IMG/VR virus record: IMGVR_UViG_3300033153_002081
Coordinates: 1 to 20,132 of that record
Strand: one strand, 5' to 3'
Source: a virus
Length of the DNA stretch: 20,132 nt
The notes beneath the pieces were generated by a model. The model searched no databases. It was not told the DNA's origin and was given only the letters and a program-made list of their open reading frames with translations. Shown here in pieces: positions 5,064 through 12,503 of this stretch (positions are counted from its first letter, which is position 1; each line of letters opens with the position of its first letter). A program made the translations under genes and the position numbers.

Positions 5064-5211
5064 TAACTGCCTCCTTCATCAATCTCTCTTCTTTTTTGGT
5101 TATTCGACCTTTAGACAATACACTCTTAATGAACTGATTGCTTTTAGGATTATTGTTTTTCTCCCATATCTTATAGCTTCTGCTACCTTCAGGGAAAGGA
5201 TTGTTGTTCAT
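5050..5211 (-). CDS. 53-aa basic protein upstream of the primase-helicase
   Basis: ATG at 5211-5209 is preceded by GGAGG at ideal spacing (TGGAGGAACG). The frame encodes 53 residues (start MNNNPFPEGSRSYKIWEKNN, end LMKEAVNVQS) and terminates with TGA at 5052-5050, overlapping the next gene by 14 bases. The product is Asn/Lys-rich with a helical C-terminus and matches no family I know. Being the leader gene of the primase-helicase transcript with a strong ribosome site, it may be a replication accessory or simply couple translation of the primase. Confidence 0.7.
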   Translation of the reverse strand: MNNNPFPEGSRSYKIWEKNNNPKSNQFIKSVLSKGRITKKEERLMKEAVNVQS

Positions 5212-5426
5212 CGTTCCTCCAGCTTATTTAATTAGTCAGCGACTCTATAAGTATATACTATTTAGCCTTCCAAGTATACAACTATTTAGAGATAGGCTAG
5301 ACTCGTTCTATCTATCCCTTATAGGGTATAGCGTCTATCCCCTAAAGTATAGTAAAATACTCTTCTACCAGAGAGACTCGCTTTCTGATAGCTAAAATGT
5401 TAAATAACTTACTTAGGAGTAAGACC
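5212..5426. promoter_or_regulatory. Divergent control region with direct repeats
   Basis: This 215-base gap separates the minus-strand primase unit from the plus-strand operon starting at 5427 and must hold both promoters. A direct repeat, AAGTATA then CTATTTAG with 2 or 3 bases between, occurs at 5249-5265 and 5272-5289. GACTC words recur (5241, 5300, 5376 areas). TAAAAT at 5353-5358 is a possible plus-strand -10, but I find no convincing -35 for it. The repeats are candidate regulator sites; exact promoters cannot be placed by eye. Confidence 0.45.
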
Positions 5427-5693
5427 ATGAAAGAACTACTTAATAAAGCACCATCTGATATACGACTTCAATCTATAGACCACCCTGGCTTTAGCTACGG
5501 AAGGCCACCAGTTAAACTGAATTCCTTCCCTAGTAAGAAAGCCATTGTAGCCTTTAAGGGTAACGGTGGTTTCTATGGCCACGTTGGAAGATATATTACC
5601 GATAACTTTTCCAATACAGCCTGCCTATCCGCTTTTGGAGAAGTAGAGGCTAACAATCTGGTTCGTAAACATAATGAAGGGCTAGAGTCGTGA
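5427..5693 (+). CDS. Hypothetical 88-aa protein
   Basis: I place the start at ATG 5427 because TTAGGAGTA (5413-5421) sits correctly before it; an upstream in-frame ATG at 5397 lies before the ribosome site and is unlikely. The 88-aa product (start MKELLNKAPSD) is mixed charge with a Gly/aromatic stretch FKGNGGFYGHVGRY near the middle, and no recognised domain. It is the first gene of the plus-strand operon and its stop overlaps the next start (GTGA). Its place next to the divergent promoter suggests an early phage function. Confidence 0.65.
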   Translation: MKELLNKAPSDIRLQSIDHPGFSYGRPPVKLNSFPSKKAIVAFKGNGGFYGHVGRYITDNFSNTACLSAFGEVEANNLVRKHNEGLES

Positions 5694-5887
5694 GTTTATC
5701 TCCTCGATATACTGACTATAAGAACTCTAATGATGCGCTTAAAGCCTATCTCGATGGTAAAGATTTTACCCTTAACGATATTTCTAGCCGTTGGAACGGT
5801 ATGGCTTGTTCTATTCGTGACTTCCCTGATGAATCTGTTACGATAAGATACGATGGTAATCGTAAAGTGATGGTTTATAAACCCTAA
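5690..5887 (+). CDS. Hypothetical 65-aa protein (GTG start)
   Basis: GTG at 5690 overlaps the previous stop as GTGA, preceded by GAAGGG. The 65-aa product contains NDISSRWNGMACSIRDFPDESVTIRYDGNRKVMVYKP, a pattern of short beta strands (split here only in description: RYDGNRKVMVY at the end). No catalytic motif or family is recognised. Tight overlap supports translation as the second cistron of the operon. Confidence 0.6.
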   Translation: MSLSPRYTDYKNSNDALKAYLDGKDFTLNDISSRWNGMACSIRDFPDESVTIRYDGNRKVMVYKP

Positions 5888-5894
5888 GTAAGTT

Positions 5895-5931
5895 GGACAT
5901 GGATGTCCGCTGTATAGAGGTACTGCCTCTA
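5895..5931 (+). other. Two adjacent short hairpins
   Basis: GGACAT, loop GG, ATGTCC (5895-5908) is followed by TAGAGG, loop TACTG, CCTCTA (5915-5931). They lie in the ~90-base gap between the 65-aa gene and the gene at 5981. No T-run follows, so they are more likely mRNA processing/stability structures than terminators. The first shares an ATGGAT core with the inner stem at 2023-2038. Confidence 0.4.
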
Positions 5932-7069: not shown

Positions 7070-7507
7070 ATGATTACATTTAAAGACACACAAATAGAAA
7101 AGAAAATGTCCGCGCTACGGTGCGTTGACTCCCAAGTAACTAGACAAGTAGTAGGTGAGATGCTTAATAAGGTGATGAAAGGATCAGGCTGGGATGGTGA
7201 TGTAGAGTTCGATTTCACTATAAGTGATTGGCAACCTGGAAAGTTCACTGATACCGTTTGGATATCAGGTAACCAATATTATGATTGGCTTATGGATAAC
7301 AAGGAGACATCTATAGATGATAAGATATCAGCTAGAATCCTTAAGAAGATGACCTTTGTATCTCACGACTTTGCTGAGTTTACACTTACAGTAATAGTAA
7401 GTTGCGACTTACCTGAGGAGGACTTCAAAACCTTAGATATGTTAGGCAAGGTTCATCGTGAGTATAAACCTGGACATATGTCTGAAAGCATATTCTGCGC
7501 AATATAA
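7070..7507 (+). CDS. Hypothetical 145-aa protein
   Basis: ATG at 7070 has the ribosome site TAGGAGTATAAC. The product has a basic helical N-terminus (KDTQIEKKMSALRCVDSQVT) and a beta-rich remainder with many aromatic and acidic residues (TVWISGNQYYDWLMDN; SHDFAEFTLTVIVSCDLPEE). No domain recognised. The stop overlaps the start of a 28-aa membrane microprotein (TAATG). Confidence 0.65.
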   Translation: MITFKDTQIEKKMSALRCVDSQVTRQVVGEMLNKVMKGSGWDGDVEFDFTISDWQPGKFTDTVWISGNQYYDWLMDNKETSIDDKISARILKKMTFVSHDFAEFTLTVIVSCDLPEEDFKTLDMLGKVHREYKPGHMSESIFCAI

Positions 7508-7593
7508 TGACTATGTTTAGAGTATTGCTCAACCTTATAAGCACAATTATTATAGTGCTTATAGTGTTGTTCTTCATAGGATTAACTGTATAA
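7507..7593 (+). CDS. 28-aa single-span membrane microprotein
   Basis: ATG at 7507 overlaps the preceding stop (TAATG) and the frame ends with TAA at 7591-7593. After MTMFRVLLN the remainder (LISTIIIVLIVLFFIGLTV) is almost purely Ile/Leu/Val/Phe, a clear transmembrane helix with one Arg near the N-terminus. There is no separate ribosome site, so translation would depend on coupling. Phages use such peptides as membrane toxins, holin-like or superinfection/immunity factors; which applies here is unknown. The chance that so hydrophobic a frame begins exactly at a stop/start overlap is low, which supports it. Confidence 0.55.
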   Translation: MTMFRVLLNLISTIIIVLIVLFFIGLTV

Positions 7594-8465: not shown

Positions 8466-8698
8466 TGGCTGAGAAAATAACCATGTGGGAAGCTAGTGAT
8501 GGATCTACTTTCAATAGTGAAGAACTAGCTAATCATCATGATGAAAGAATTGCTCTATCTGAATACATAGATGAGAATCCTATATATGGCTTAGCAGTTG
8601 AAGCTAGAATAGATGGGTCTGAGTTCCTTAGATGGGCTGATGAGCAGAAGCGCATTGTAATTATGCTATTACCTGAGGAGGGAAAGAATGGCAATTAA
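8465..8698 (+). CDS. Small acidic phage protein, 77 aa
   Basis: ATG at 8465 shares its A with the preceding stop (TAATG); an upstream TTG at 8459 is less likely. The product starts MAEKITMWEASDGSTFNSEE and contains EARIDGSEFLRWADEQKRIV. Similar short proteins with a histidine/acid-rich N-terminus and an IDG.EFL.W motif recur in phage recombination loci, by memory. Its 3' end overlaps the Sak4 start by 11 bases and carries that gene's GAGGAGGG ribosome site. Confidence 0.65.
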   Translation: MAEKITMWEASDGSTFNSEELANHHDERIALSEYIDENPIYGLAVEARIDGSEFLRWADEQKRIVIMLLPEEGKNGN

Positions 8699-9371
8699 GA
8701 TAAAAAGTACCAAAGATGTTACAGCAGAAGGTGCTAATATGGTCATCTATGGGGAGTCTGGGGTGGGTAAAACCACTCTAGTTTCTCACCTAGAGAATGC
8801 TATAATACTTTCCGCTGAGCAGGGGCTTCTATCCCTGAAGAACTTTGATATTCCTTACATTGAAATAAAGAATATTGATGATGTTCAAGAAGCATACGAT
8901 TATGTGCGCAAATCTGACTATGACCATATAGTCTTTGACTCGCTTACTGAGATAGCTGAGGTTGTTTTGTATATTATACAAGATGACTTGGTTAAGGAAG
9001 GTAAGGGCAAAGATAAACGTCAGGGATACGGTGCGCTGGCTGATGCTTTCGGGGTTATGATAAGAAAGTTCAGAGATATAAAAGGCAAGAATACCATATT
9101 CTTTGCCAAACAGAAATACATCTATGATGAGGACGGTATGATAACATCGTTCGCACCTATGATGCCAGGTCGTGTGCTCCCACATGGCTTACCTTATTTG
9201 GTTGATGAAGTATTTTGTCACCAGATGGATCGTAAAGGAACACGATTCTTTCAAACCGTTGCTGATCGGAAGCATCCTGCTAAAGACAGAAGCGGAAATC
9301 TTGAAGCAAAAGAAATGGATCCAAACTTAAACGACATTATAAAACGAGTCCTTACGGGACAGGAGAAGTAA
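8688..9371 (+). CDS. Sak4-like RecA-fold ATPase / single-strand annealing protein
   Basis: The 227-aa protein has Walker A GESGVGKT (22-29), Walker B IVFD (81-84) followed by SLTE, and a later FFAKQKYIYD strand, the arrangement of phage Sak4 / AAA_24 RecA-core proteins, which are RecA-like but shortened and assist single-strand annealing and recombination. Length is typical. The ATG follows GAGGAGGGAAAG. It is immediately followed by a DUF669 gene (1-base gap), a pairing widely seen in phages where the partner behaves as a ssDNA-binding protein. Together with the nuclease and helicase downstream it forms a recombination module. Confidence 0.85.
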   Translation: MAIKIKSTKDVTAEGANMVIYGESGVGKTTLVSHLENAIILSAEQGLLSLKNFDIPYIEIKNIDDVQEAYDYVRKSDYDHIVFDSLTEIAEVVLYIIQDDLVKEGKGKDKRQGYGALADAFGVMIRKFRDIKGKNTIFFAKQKYIYDEDGMITSFAPMMPGRVLPHGLPYLVDEVFCHQMDRKGTRFFQTVADRKHPAKDRSGNLEAKEMDPNLNDIIKRVLTGQEK

Positions 9372-9372
9372 A

Positions 9373-9810
9373 ATGGCTGAATTGCCTGATGTATTCGCAG
9401 TAGATGATAGCACCGAACGTATGTCTGACTTTGGTATTATGCCAACAGATGATATTTACTTAGGTCATATCAAAAAGTCTGAAATCAAAAAGACTAAAGC
9501 AGGAACAGGCTTACGCCTCAACATGCAGGTATTGATTGAAGAGTCTAAGAAAAATGAAGAGAAGTACAAAGGTCGTCTTGTCTTCATCGGTCTTAATATC
9601 AAGAACCCGTCTGAACAGGCAGTAGCTATCTCTCAGAAAGAGCTAGCATCTATTTGTGATGCGGTTGGAGTAGAAGAAGTGGAAGATTCGGAAGAACTCC
9701 ATGATATCAGCTTTGGCTTTAAGATGAAAGTCGAGAAGTCAGAAGGCTATGATGATAAGAATGTTATCAATAGCTACATGACCGAAGCTGATTACAACGA
9801 AGCGGAATAA
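9373..9810 (+). CDS. DUF669 family protein, probable ssDNA-binding partner of Sak4
   Basis: The 145-aa product follows the DUF669 pattern: DIYLGHIKKSEIKKTKAGTG near residue 28-47, then KYKGRLVFIGLNIKNPSEQA, then KELASICDAVGVEEVEDSEE and a beta strand FGFKMKVEKSEGY. DUF669 proteins are OB-like and regarded as phage SSB-type factors next to Sak4 or annealing proteins. It is acidic at the C-terminus (ADYNEAE), as in SSB tails that bind partner proteins. Ribosome site AGGAGAAG precedes the start. It is followed by the structured gap at 9811-9927. Confidence 0.82.
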   Translation: MAELPDVFAVDDSTERMSDFGIMPTDDIYLGHIKKSEIKKTKAGTGLRLNMQVLIEESKKNEEKYKGRLVFIGLNIKNPSEQAVAISQKELASICDAVGVEEVEDSEELHDISFGFKMKVEKSEGYDDKNVINSYMTEADYNEAE

Positions 9811-9842
9811 CTTACCACGCCACGGAGGGCACAATTCAAATT

Positions 9843-9916
9843 ACTGGTTGAGGTGGGTTAGGCAAGGTACTCCTCAGGGCGCCCCAACCAGTACTCCTAT
9901 AGTCCCTGAGGAGTAC
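9843..9916 (+). promoter_or_regulatory. Interleaved inverted repeats burying a Shine-Dalgarno sequence
   Basis: ACTGGTTG (9843-9850) pairs with CAACCAGT (9885-9892). GTACTCCTCAGGG (9867-9879) pairs over 13 perfect bases with CCCTGAGGAGTAC (9904-9916). The stems interleave, the topology of an H-type pseudoknot. A second GTACTCCT (9891-9898) can instead pair with AGGAGTAC (9909-9916) as a local hairpin. Both alternatives cover AGGAG (9909-9913), the only Shine-Dalgarno-like sequence before the ATG at 9928, although its 14-base spacing is long. Candidate translational switch; a DNA-level role is not excluded. Confidence 0.6.
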
Positions 9917-9927
9917 ACCTAATTATT

Positions 9928-10149
9928 ATGGCTAATAGATGCACATTACATAAGTTTAAAATTGATGAATTTGTCGATTGGCTAGACAAAGAAGATATTG
10001 AATGGAGAGATGGTAAAGGAGATTGGCAAGTTCTTCAAGTCAAAACAGATAAGGGATGGTCACCAATCTATACAAGAATAAAAGGTGATCATTTAGTTAT
10101 ACAACAAGCATTAAAATCAATTGTAAAGAGGTTTATACAGCATGGCTAA
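9928..10149 (+). CDS. Small conserved phage protein, 73 aa
   Basis: The product starts MANRCTLHKFKIDEFVDWLD and ends LKSIVKRFIQHG, with a DWQVLQVKT strand and YTRIKGDHLVIQ in between. It resembles short phage proteins placed before a RecB/Cas4-like nuclease, whose layout is helix, beta-hairpin, then a basic helix. Function is unknown. Codon use here is more A/T-rich than in the neighbours. Its start has only a distant Shine-Dalgarno sequence locked in the structure at 9843-9916. It overlaps the nuclease start by 8 bases. Confidence 0.65.
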   Translation: MANRCTLHKFKIDEFVDWLDKEDIEWRDGKGDWQVLQVKTDKGWSPIYTRIKGDHLVIQQALKSIVKRFIQHG

Positions 10150-10963
10150 GATAGAAAAGTTCAACTCCATTAATTCTATAATGGAAGAAGGGGAGATTAC
10201 CAGCATACCAAGAACATATCTTGGATACTCATCACTTGGTAGCTCATGTATGCGCAAGCTGTGGTATGGTTTCCGCTGGGTAGCGCCAGACTCAGCCTCC
10301 AGAAGAATGAACCGAATCTGGGACAGAGGGCATATTGAAGAGGACAGAATCTTTGATGACTTGAGAAGAGTTGGAGTAGAGATAACAGGAGTAGAGCAGG
10401 AAGTGGTAGGAGTAACAGGACACCTAAAGGGTCACTGTGATGGGATACTGTTTAATGTACCTACTGCTGAAAAGACTCCTCATCTATTTGAAGCCAAGAC
10501 TATGAAGCATTCTAGCTTTGTATCTTATCTGAAGAAAGGGCTGAGAATGTACTCCCCTGCCTATTGGCAACAAATACATAGCTACATGGGTCACCTAAAC
10601 CTCACTCGCTGCTTATATGTAGTAGTGGATAAAGATACAGAAACTAGAGATTACCAAAGGATAAAGTATGACAAAGATCAATTTGACGAAGGTGAACGAA
10701 TCGGCTTTAACATCATCGCAGCAGGAGAAGCTCCACCAAGAATGGCTAATGCGTCATCAACATTCTTTGAATGTAAATGGTGCTGCTTTAAAGAGGTTTG
10801 TCACAAAGGTGCGCAAGTTGCTAAAAATTGCAGAACGTGCGTCTACTGGGACATAGAAGAGGAAGGCAGATTCTCCTGTTCAAAATGGAAACATGATTTA
10901 GAGAAAGAGATGCAGTTACTAGGTTGTAAAGATTATGAAAAGGATACCATCTATGATCTATGA
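10142..10963 (+). CDS. PD-(D/E)XK nuclease, Cas4/RecB-like, with C-terminal cysteines
   Basis: The 273-aa protein shows LGSSCMRKLWYGFRW (32-46), DRGHIEEDR, the catalytic Asp100 (HCDGIL), Glu117-Ala-Lys119 (LFEAKT) and the QQIHSYM glutamine motif (143-149), i.e. a PD-(D/E)XK/RecB fold. C-terminal cysteines at 211, 214, 215, 220, 230, 233 and 246, plus Cys36, suggest a metal or Fe-S cluster as in Cas4/AddB-type exonucleases. It likely resects DNA ends for the Sak4/DUF669 pair. The start overlaps the previous gene; AGAGG lies upstream. The 3' end overlaps the helicase start. Confidence 0.85.
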   Translation: MAKIEKFNSINSIMEEGEITSIPRTYLGYSSLGSSCMRKLWYGFRWVAPDSASRRMNRIWDRGHIEEDRIFDDLRRVGVEITGVEQEVVGVTGHLKGHCDGILFNVPTAEKTPHLFEAKTMKHSSFVSYLKKGLRMYSPAYWQQIHSYMGHLNLTRCLYVVVDKDTETRDYQRIKYDKDQFDEGERIGFNIIAAGEAPPRMANASSTFFECKWCCFKEVCHKGAQVAKNCRTCVYWDIEEEGRFSCSKWKHDLEKEMQLLGCKDYEKDTIYDL

Positions 10964-12503
10964 AGATAGACAATATCAAATAGATGCCTCAGATGCTGTA
11001 TTCAAGTACCTAGATAAACACTCTCAGGGTCACCCTTTAGTAGCACTTCCTACTGGAGCAGGCAAGACAGCGGTAATGGCTAAGATAGTTGCTAGGATAT
11101 TCAAGAGAGAACCATTAGCTAAGATAGTGGTGGTCTCTCATGACTCTAGGATACTAGAGCAAAATGCTGCTGGTCTGGAAGGCATACACCCCGTACATAT
11201 CAATTCCGCTTCTCTTATGCGCAGAGAGGTGGGCAGGCTAACCGTAGCGGGAATACAGTCTGTATATAAGAGCAACGAGTTTAGCGACTTTACCCATGTG
11301 ATTATTGATGAGGCGCACACTATCCCTCAAGCTGAGAACTCTATGTACAGACAGTTCTTTGATAGTATAGGTGCTCATACTAGGATAGGACTTACAGCTA
11401 CTCCATATCGAACAGGTCAAGGCTATATAATTGGCGAAGATCATATGTTTGATAAGATAGTCATAGACTTGACATTTGGCGCGAAATTTACCAAACTGGT
11501 TAAAGATGGCTACCTATGTAACCTCACTATCAACTCTACTCATATTAAATTAGAGACAGAAGGGATACATTCTCAAGGTGGGGACTTCAACATAAAGGAA
11601 ATGTCTACTAAGTTTAATCGCATGTCTATCACCAAAGCAGCACTAAATGAAATGGTAGAGAAAGGCAAGGGAAGAAAGAAATGGCTTATCTTTGCTATTG
11701 ATATAGATCATGCTGAATCTATAGTAGATGTTCTAAATAGTATGGGTGTATTTGCTATGCCTGTTCATTCTAGAAATGAGTTTGATAATGATAGAATCAT
11801 AAACTTATACAGAAGAAATATGCTACACTGTATAGTGAATGTAGGTATGCTTACCACAGGATTCGATGCGCCAGATATTGATTTGATTGGATTACTCCGA
11901 CCTACTCAATCCGCAGGACTTCATGTTCAAATGATCGGACGCGGTCTGCGGATTGCTGATGGGAAAGATGATTGCTTGGTGCTAGACTACGCAGGTAATA
12001 CTGAGAGGCTTGGACCAATCAATAGGATTAAGCCATATGTAAAAGGCAAAGGAAAAGCTACGGGTGAACCCATCACTAAGACTTGCGAAGTTTGTGATAC
12101 TATTGTAGCACCTAATGTTAAGATATGCCCTAAGTGCGGAACAGAGTTCAAGTTTAAACAACTCATAGGTTCTTATTCCGCTGATATGGAGGTGATAGCA
12201 GATTCTGCCTTGAAGTGGTTTCGCATCGACTCGATGGACTTTAAGTTACATAATAAGAGAGGTGGTATATCTAGTATCAAAGTAACATACCAATGCGGTC
12301 TGAAGATATTCAATGAATGGATATGTGCTAACCATAAAGGATATGCTGGTAACAGGGCTAAGCATTGGCTAACAGAGCGGAAAGTAGTACATAATGGAGA
12401 CTTGCGCATGACCATAAGTCTGCTGGAGCAAGCTATTGTTCCTAAACGCATCCAAGTAAAGACTGACTCTAAGTACCCAGAGGTGCTTAAGAGTGAGTTT
12501 TAA
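10953..12503 (+). CDS. SF2 DEAH-box helicase with zinc finger (RadD/UvsW-like)
   Basis: From ATG 10953 the product is 516 aa: Walker A PTGAGKT (33-39), DEAH (119-122), TATPYR (148-153), GFDAPDID (303-310) and QMIGRGLRI (326-334), all standard SF2 motifs. Four cysteines (378, 381, 392, 395) in CEVC...CPKCG form a zinc-ribbon after the helicase core, as in RadD (YejH). Such helicases remodel branched DNA. I prefer 10953 over ATG 10935 because AAAAGGA is spaced well before it. It overlaps the nuclease gene by 11 bases. The ~105 residues after the zinc site are not recognised. Confidence 0.88.
   Translation: MIYEDRQYQIDASDAVFKYLDKHSQGHPLVALPTGAGKTAVMAKIVARIFKREPLAKIVVVSHDSRILEQNAAGLEGIHPVHINSASLMRREVGRLTVAGIQSVYKSNEFSDFTHVIIDEAHTIPQAENSMYRQFFDSIGAHTRIGLTATPYRTGQGYIIGEDHMFDKIVIDLTFGAKFTKLVKDGYLCNLTINSTHIKLETEGIHSQGGDFNIKEMSTKFNRMSITKAALNEMVEKGKGRKKWLIFAIDIDHAESIVDVLNSMGVFAMPVHSRNEFDNDRIINLYRRNMLHCIVNVGMLTTGFDAPDIDLIGLLRPTQSAGLHVQMIGRGLRIADGKDDCLVLDYAGNTERLGPINRIKPYVKGKGKATGEPITKTCEVCDTIVAPNVKICPKCGTEFKFKQLIGSYSADMEVIADSALKWFRIDSMDFKLHNKRGGISSIKVTYQCGLKIFNEWICANHKGYAGNRAKHWLTERKVVHNGDLRMTISLLEQAIVPKRIQVKTDSKYPEVLKSEF

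Follow-up and report, generated by a model that had tools for sequence, protein, structure and literature searches.

A candidate intercistronic pseudoknot RNA behind the DUF669 SSB gene of a phage recombination operon

The gap behind the gene for a DUF669 single-stranded DNA-binding protein (SSB) in a phage recombination operon can fold, as RNA, into a strong H-type pseudoknot whose shape is retained, without its letters, in a distant relative. Judged from sequence, the pseudoknot is very probably a real, uncharacterised control element. It lies in IMG/VR record IMGVR_UViG_3300033153_002081, of which we studied positions 1 to 20,132 (the whole 20,132-nt stretch is called the window below). Quite possibly, it acts as an intercistronic RNA within the Sak4–SSB–nuclease–helicase operon that would separate expression of the SSB from that of the downstream nuclease and helicase, and we set out this reading below together with four alternatives.

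Results

On the + strand of the window, a Sak4-like ssDNA-annealing ATPase gene (8688-9371; PF13479, 3e-28; phrog_124 Sak4-like, 6.5e-49) is followed by the DUF669 SSB-like gene (9373-9810; PF05037, 1.3e-06; phrog_6015 single strand DNA binding protein, 1.5e-20), a 73-aa gene with no assigned function (9928-10149; phrog_26384, 4.5e-28), a Cas4-domain exonuclease gene (10142-10963; phrog_1990, 1.6e-69) and a DNA helicase gene (10935-12503; phrog_16, 1.5e-81). In HK620, the DUF669 protein has been shown to be an SSB acting together with Sak4 (PMC5928155). The element (9819-9916) begins after the DUF669 stop at 9810. A near-identical phage in IMG/VR (L001, 99.5%) carries the same element letter for letter. 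A second relative, IMG/VR 3300013099_000136 (L002), is far more distant, with DUF669 and nuclease proteins 68% and 51% identical to those of the window. Elsewhere in the window, an AT-rich palindrome, ATAAGCAC-N10-GTGCTTAT, occupies 7524-7565, inside a 186-nt gap behind gene 7070-7507.

Within the element, all on the + strand, the 5′ arm of a first stem, P1 (9842-9853), and loop 1 (9854-9866, 13 nt) precede the 5′ arm of a second stem, P2 (9867-9879); the 3′ arm of P1 (9882-9893) comes next, separated by loop 3 (CTCCTATAGT, 9894-9903, 10 nt) from the 3′ arm of P2 (9904-9916), which includes an AGGAG at 9909-9913. The original prediction had described a perfect 13-nt inverted repeat interleaved with an 8-nt one. 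The former is P2, which pairs perfectly over 13 bp, and the latter (9843-9850 with 9885-9892) is part of P1, in which 11 of 12 positions pair and one is an A-C mismatch. That such interleaving exceeds chance, as was also claimed, is borne out by the pseudoknot score, the best summed stacking energy of a two-stem pseudoknot: the window reaches -44.9, a value matched by none of 100,000 dinucleotide shuffles. Of 331 stretches taken from behind genes for Sak4, DUF669, nuclease and helicase, just this locus of the window and its counterpart in L002 score below -38, the next best standing at about -29. Nested folding of the region is unremarkable (z -1.27) since, without the pseudoknot, formation of either stem shuts out the other, and the minimum free energy (MFE) over the first 100 nt is not unusual in either phage (z 0.36 in the window, -0.75 in L002). 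In the nested fold, an outer helix present only in the window (9857-9862 with 9918-9923) extends P2.

Other strong pseudoknot scores among the loci fall within long open frames (L039, L093 and L099). In another phage contig, L144, a very strong interleaved inverted repeat with stems of 17 and 11 bp scores -64.7 on the - strand (5193-5281; about 2383-2471 of the + strand); it lies upstream of the Sak4 gene, a place unrelated to that of the window's element.

Both stems are kept in L002, where the arms follow the same order with different letters: P1 pairs 2233-2244 with 2261-2272 and P2 pairs 2249-2260 with 2282-2293, each over 12 bp, around a loop 1 of 4 nt and a loop 3 (ACCTTAGTT) of 9 nt. 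The L002 score of -46.9 is again reached by none of 100,000 shuffles. Between the two phages, 14-16 double compensatory changes preserve pairing, eight in P1 and six to eight in P2 depending on the register chosen, so that conservation of the pairing, whose absence from related phages the original prediction had named as refuting it, is found in this relative. Five of the 24 L002 pairs are G-U, which favors a + strand RNA over DNA.

These G-U pairs also bear on whether the repeats act as DNA, for example as palindromes for recombination, replication or regulator binding. Inverted repeats would not be out of place within a recombination neighborhood, and the - strand of the window also scores well; the strand is less clear there because the single mismatched position of P1 would pair as a wobble on the opposite strand. 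In a DNA cruciform, however, the five G-U pairs of L002 would be mismatches, and the arm sequences differ between the two phages, unlike those of a conserved protein-binding site. We consider a DNA-level element highly improbable.

Further homologues were sought in IMG/VR with the DUF669, Sak4, nuclease and exonuclease proteins, by comparing Sak4 with genomes, and by block-pattern scans of IMG/VR and genomes. A relaxed-block scan gave at least 243 sites among the matches listed, redundant copies of loci included, and a pseudoknot of the window's strength occurs at these sites only in the window and L001 and in L002; the other matches inspected appear coding or chance. Among the matches listed, the pseudoknot is known from only two lineages. 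Two candidate homologues were set aside, as Shewanella phage 1/40 (GCCAATAATGGCACAATTT, E about 1) has no such pseudoknot and Agrobacterium phage Alfirin has a terminator and no such pseudoknot. Rfam covariance models gave no match to the element at gathering or permissive thresholds, and no core sequence shared with riboswitches of the preQ1 or SAM-II type, which are H-type pseudoknots, was seen.

The original prediction held that the pseudoknot buries the Shine-Dalgarno sequence of the 73-aa gene as part of a two-state switch. Its sequence landmarks are sound: a second GTACTCCT copy lies at 9891-9898 and could form a competing hairpin with 9909-9916, this hairpin is strong in the window (z -3.2), and both it and P2 cover the AGGAG. 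The proposed purpose is not supported by L002, which retains the pseudoknot and lacks the 73-aa gene, the buried Shine-Dalgarno sequence and the competing hairpin (z 0.1; the second copy is not conserved). The L002 nuclease probably starts at TTG 2313, as inferred from protein alignment, and the GGAG at 2303 lies outside the pseudoknot, 10 nt past the last stem, which ends at 2293. In the window itself, 14 nt separate the AGGAG from the ATG at 9928, a wide gap for a Shine-Dalgarno sequence. Relatives of the 73-aa protein (PHROG 26384) occur in phages of Klebsiella, Acinetobacter, Serratia and Pseudomonas, and in the two annotated neighborhoods inspected (Acinetobacter AP22 and Pseudomonas Itty13) they sit amid unrelated genes, so the 73-aa gene has the look of an accessory insertion separating the pseudoknot from the nuclease. 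Given what L002 lacks, burial of the AGGAG can be no more than a side effect in the window, where it would reduce translation of an accessory gene, and a two-state switch is a very unlikely account of the element.

Upstream of P1, the two phages share a block, GCCANGGANGGCACAATT, which in the window reads GCCACGGAGGGCACAATT (9819-9836, + strand) and is identical at 16 of 18 positions in L002; the best of 150 shuffled pairs reaches 14. The block starts 8 nt from the DUF669 stop in the window and 10 nt from it in L002, and this 2-nt difference means that it is not read in a common frame. A readthrough or frameshift pseudoknot, or a coding block, was rejected for want of a fixed register and, in the window, because the frame closes at TAG 9859-9861. 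A sigma-54 or sigma-70 promoter at GGCACAATT was likewise rejected, since no consistent second hexamer was seen by eye and no promoter was predicted in the gap.

The first part of the block forms a hairpin, GCC-ACGGAG-GGC (9819-9830, + strand; counterpart at 2207-2218 in L002), predicted to fold at -4.2 kcal/mol in the window and -5.0 kcal/mol in L002. In both phages it presents GGA in an ANGGAN hexaloop, a loop seen in RsmE–RNA structures and in keeping with the preference of CsrA and RsmE for GGA in a loop (PMC7652899). An A/U-rich stretch lies 3′ of the hairpin in each (ACAATTCAAAT in the window, ACAATTTTAAAGAC in L002). Four base pairs could join the GGA loop to loop 3 in each phage, a contact that is possible but easily chance.

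A putative host CsrA might bind the ANGGAN hairpin, possibly with a bridge to another GGA in the ribosome-binding site downstream, and so shift translation or stability with the growth state of the host. Beyond the loop itself, several observations are consistent with such control: the only positions that differ within the 18-nt block are the two N positions of ANGGAN; the string CANGGANG occurs once on the + strand of L002's 16 kb, in this hairpin; second GGA sites lie downstream (9910 in the window, 2303 in L002); and another ANGGAN hairpin, GGAC-ATGGAT-GTCC at 5894-5907 in the gap behind gene 5690-5887, is itself a candidate CsrA-type site. Against it, the window has 9 copies of the plain string CANGGANG where 6.3 are expected, which is no enrichment, the bridging distance is about 90 nt, and the second GGA of the window lies inside P2. 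As an explanation of the whole element, CsrA/RsmA control is unlikely.

Strong structure behind DUF669 apparently is a general feature of the Sak4 operon. We compared 100-101 distinct Sak4–DUF669–nuclease loci (final 300 nt of DUF669 less than 90% identical), drawn from L001-L226 and L330-L332. A terminator-like hairpin lies within 120 nt past the DUF669 stop in 24% of distinct loci; the corresponding shares are 3% behind Sak4, 6% behind the nuclease, 7% behind the helicase and about 5% for shuffled sequences. The mean MFE z behind DUF669 is -2.09, compared with -0.36 to -0.48 after the three neighboring genes, and z is -2 or lower in 53 of 100 loci; because the loci are related, these figures are a trend rather than independent trials. 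The nearest named phages, Cronobacter Ss1 and Vibrio VA-RY-3 and PVA7 (DnaE 47-49% identical, gene order similar), have clear terminator-like hairpins directly after DUF669, as do L187 and L189. No intrinsic terminator is predicted in the gap of the window, where P2 is followed by ACCTAATTATTATGG rather than a T-tract. As neither the window nor L002 has a proper T-tract at the element, its resemblance to terminators concerns location rather than mechanism.

Four Lachnospiraceae loci (L282, L262, L269 and L281), three of them contigs from one genome, RUG13856, carry repeated GTGCCANGGATGGCACAATTA(C/T)GAAGTT-like palindromes upstream of genes. These are probably a DNA operator, unrelated to the pseudoknot element.

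Discussion

We propose that, as polymerase exits the DUF669 gene, the GGA-loop hairpin would fold first, followed by P1, after which P2 would lock across to complete the H-type pseudoknot. Such a block behind the SSB stop would most likely protect the SSB message at its 3′ end against 3′ exonucleases, and the same block could hinder ribosomes or polymerase going further, uncoupling the SSB from its neighbors. The outcome would be SSB in excess over nuclease and helicase. The GGA hairpin probably would dock a protein, either of the CsrA/RsmA type or encoded by the phage, making the block adjustable. A phage requires much SSB but little nuclease or helicase. A structure that ends or protects the SSB message while damping the downstream genes would suit this need, and terminators could do so in relatives. 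The lack of a T-tract in the window's lineage favors a role in blocking exonucleases and uncoupling expression, and the pseudoknot there would replace the simple hairpin or intrinsic terminator of many related phages.

The main rivals of this uncoupling explanation, control by CsrA and an SSB feedback operator, are compatible with parts of it. In a feedback operator, free DUF669 protein would bind the pseudoknot and the adjacent A/U-rich strand and repress the downstream genes. By analogy with T4 this has some appeal, as the element adjoins an SSB gene, the DUF669 protein of HK620 is an SSB (PMC5928155), T4 gp32 uses a pseudoknot together with an unstructured UUAAA/UAAA stretch (PMC535899), and in both the window and L002 the conserved hairpin leads into an A/U-rich stretch. 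Nevertheless, the next Shine-Dalgarno sequence lies outside the structure in L002, a simple hairpin is all that most relatives with this SSB family have, and the position of the element behind, not before, the SSB gene means that its target is not the start of that gene. We therefore regard an SSB operator as fairly unlikely.

Even so, the gene 32 operator of T4 and RB69 (PMC535899) is the closest known system in spirit: an H-type pseudoknot at the SSB gene of a phage, adjoining an unstructured stretch rich in A and U, whose shape is retained as its sequence diverges. The T4 operator lies before its SSB gene and represses that gene, whereas the window's element lies behind. Moreover, the window's SSB belongs to an unrelated family (DUF669), and the stems of the element are of about 12 bp each. 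The hairpins and terminators behind DUF669 in Ss1, VA-RY-3, PVA7, L187 and L189 share the element's place in the operon, with strong structure after the SSB stop; in contrast to these, the window has a pseudoknot rather than a hairpin, no T-tract and, in addition, a conserved GGA hairpin. CsrA/RsmA-bound leader hairpins (PMC7652899) resemble the block in placing an ANGGAN hexaloop upstream of further GGA, but the candidate site in the window is intercistronic and followed by a large pseudoknot. The preQ1 and SAM-II riboswitches (see PMC11625349) resemble the element in having H-type topology near a ribosome-binding region, and differ from it in that the window's element has no Rfam match and no metabolic gene downstream.

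We see the element as a candidate phage intercistronic regulatory RNA whose pseudoknot is specific to its lineage. More speculatively, the element might represent a new class of phage regulatory RNA, in which a GGA-loop hairpin and a pseudoknot of two stems, each of about one turn, behind the SSB gene replace the terminator of relatives, and a putative host CsrA-type or phage protein would adjust the balance between SSB and recombination nuclease. T4-type phages are known to autoregulate their SSB by means of a pseudoknot in its mRNA, and here a pseudoknot accompanies the unrelated DUF669 family, on the other side of the gene, in Sak4 recombination operons. The pseudoknot behind DUF669, together with strong folding at this place in about half of 100 related operons, makes the gap a testable control point for SSB versus nuclease and helicase, one that possibly links phage control to a putative host CsrA.
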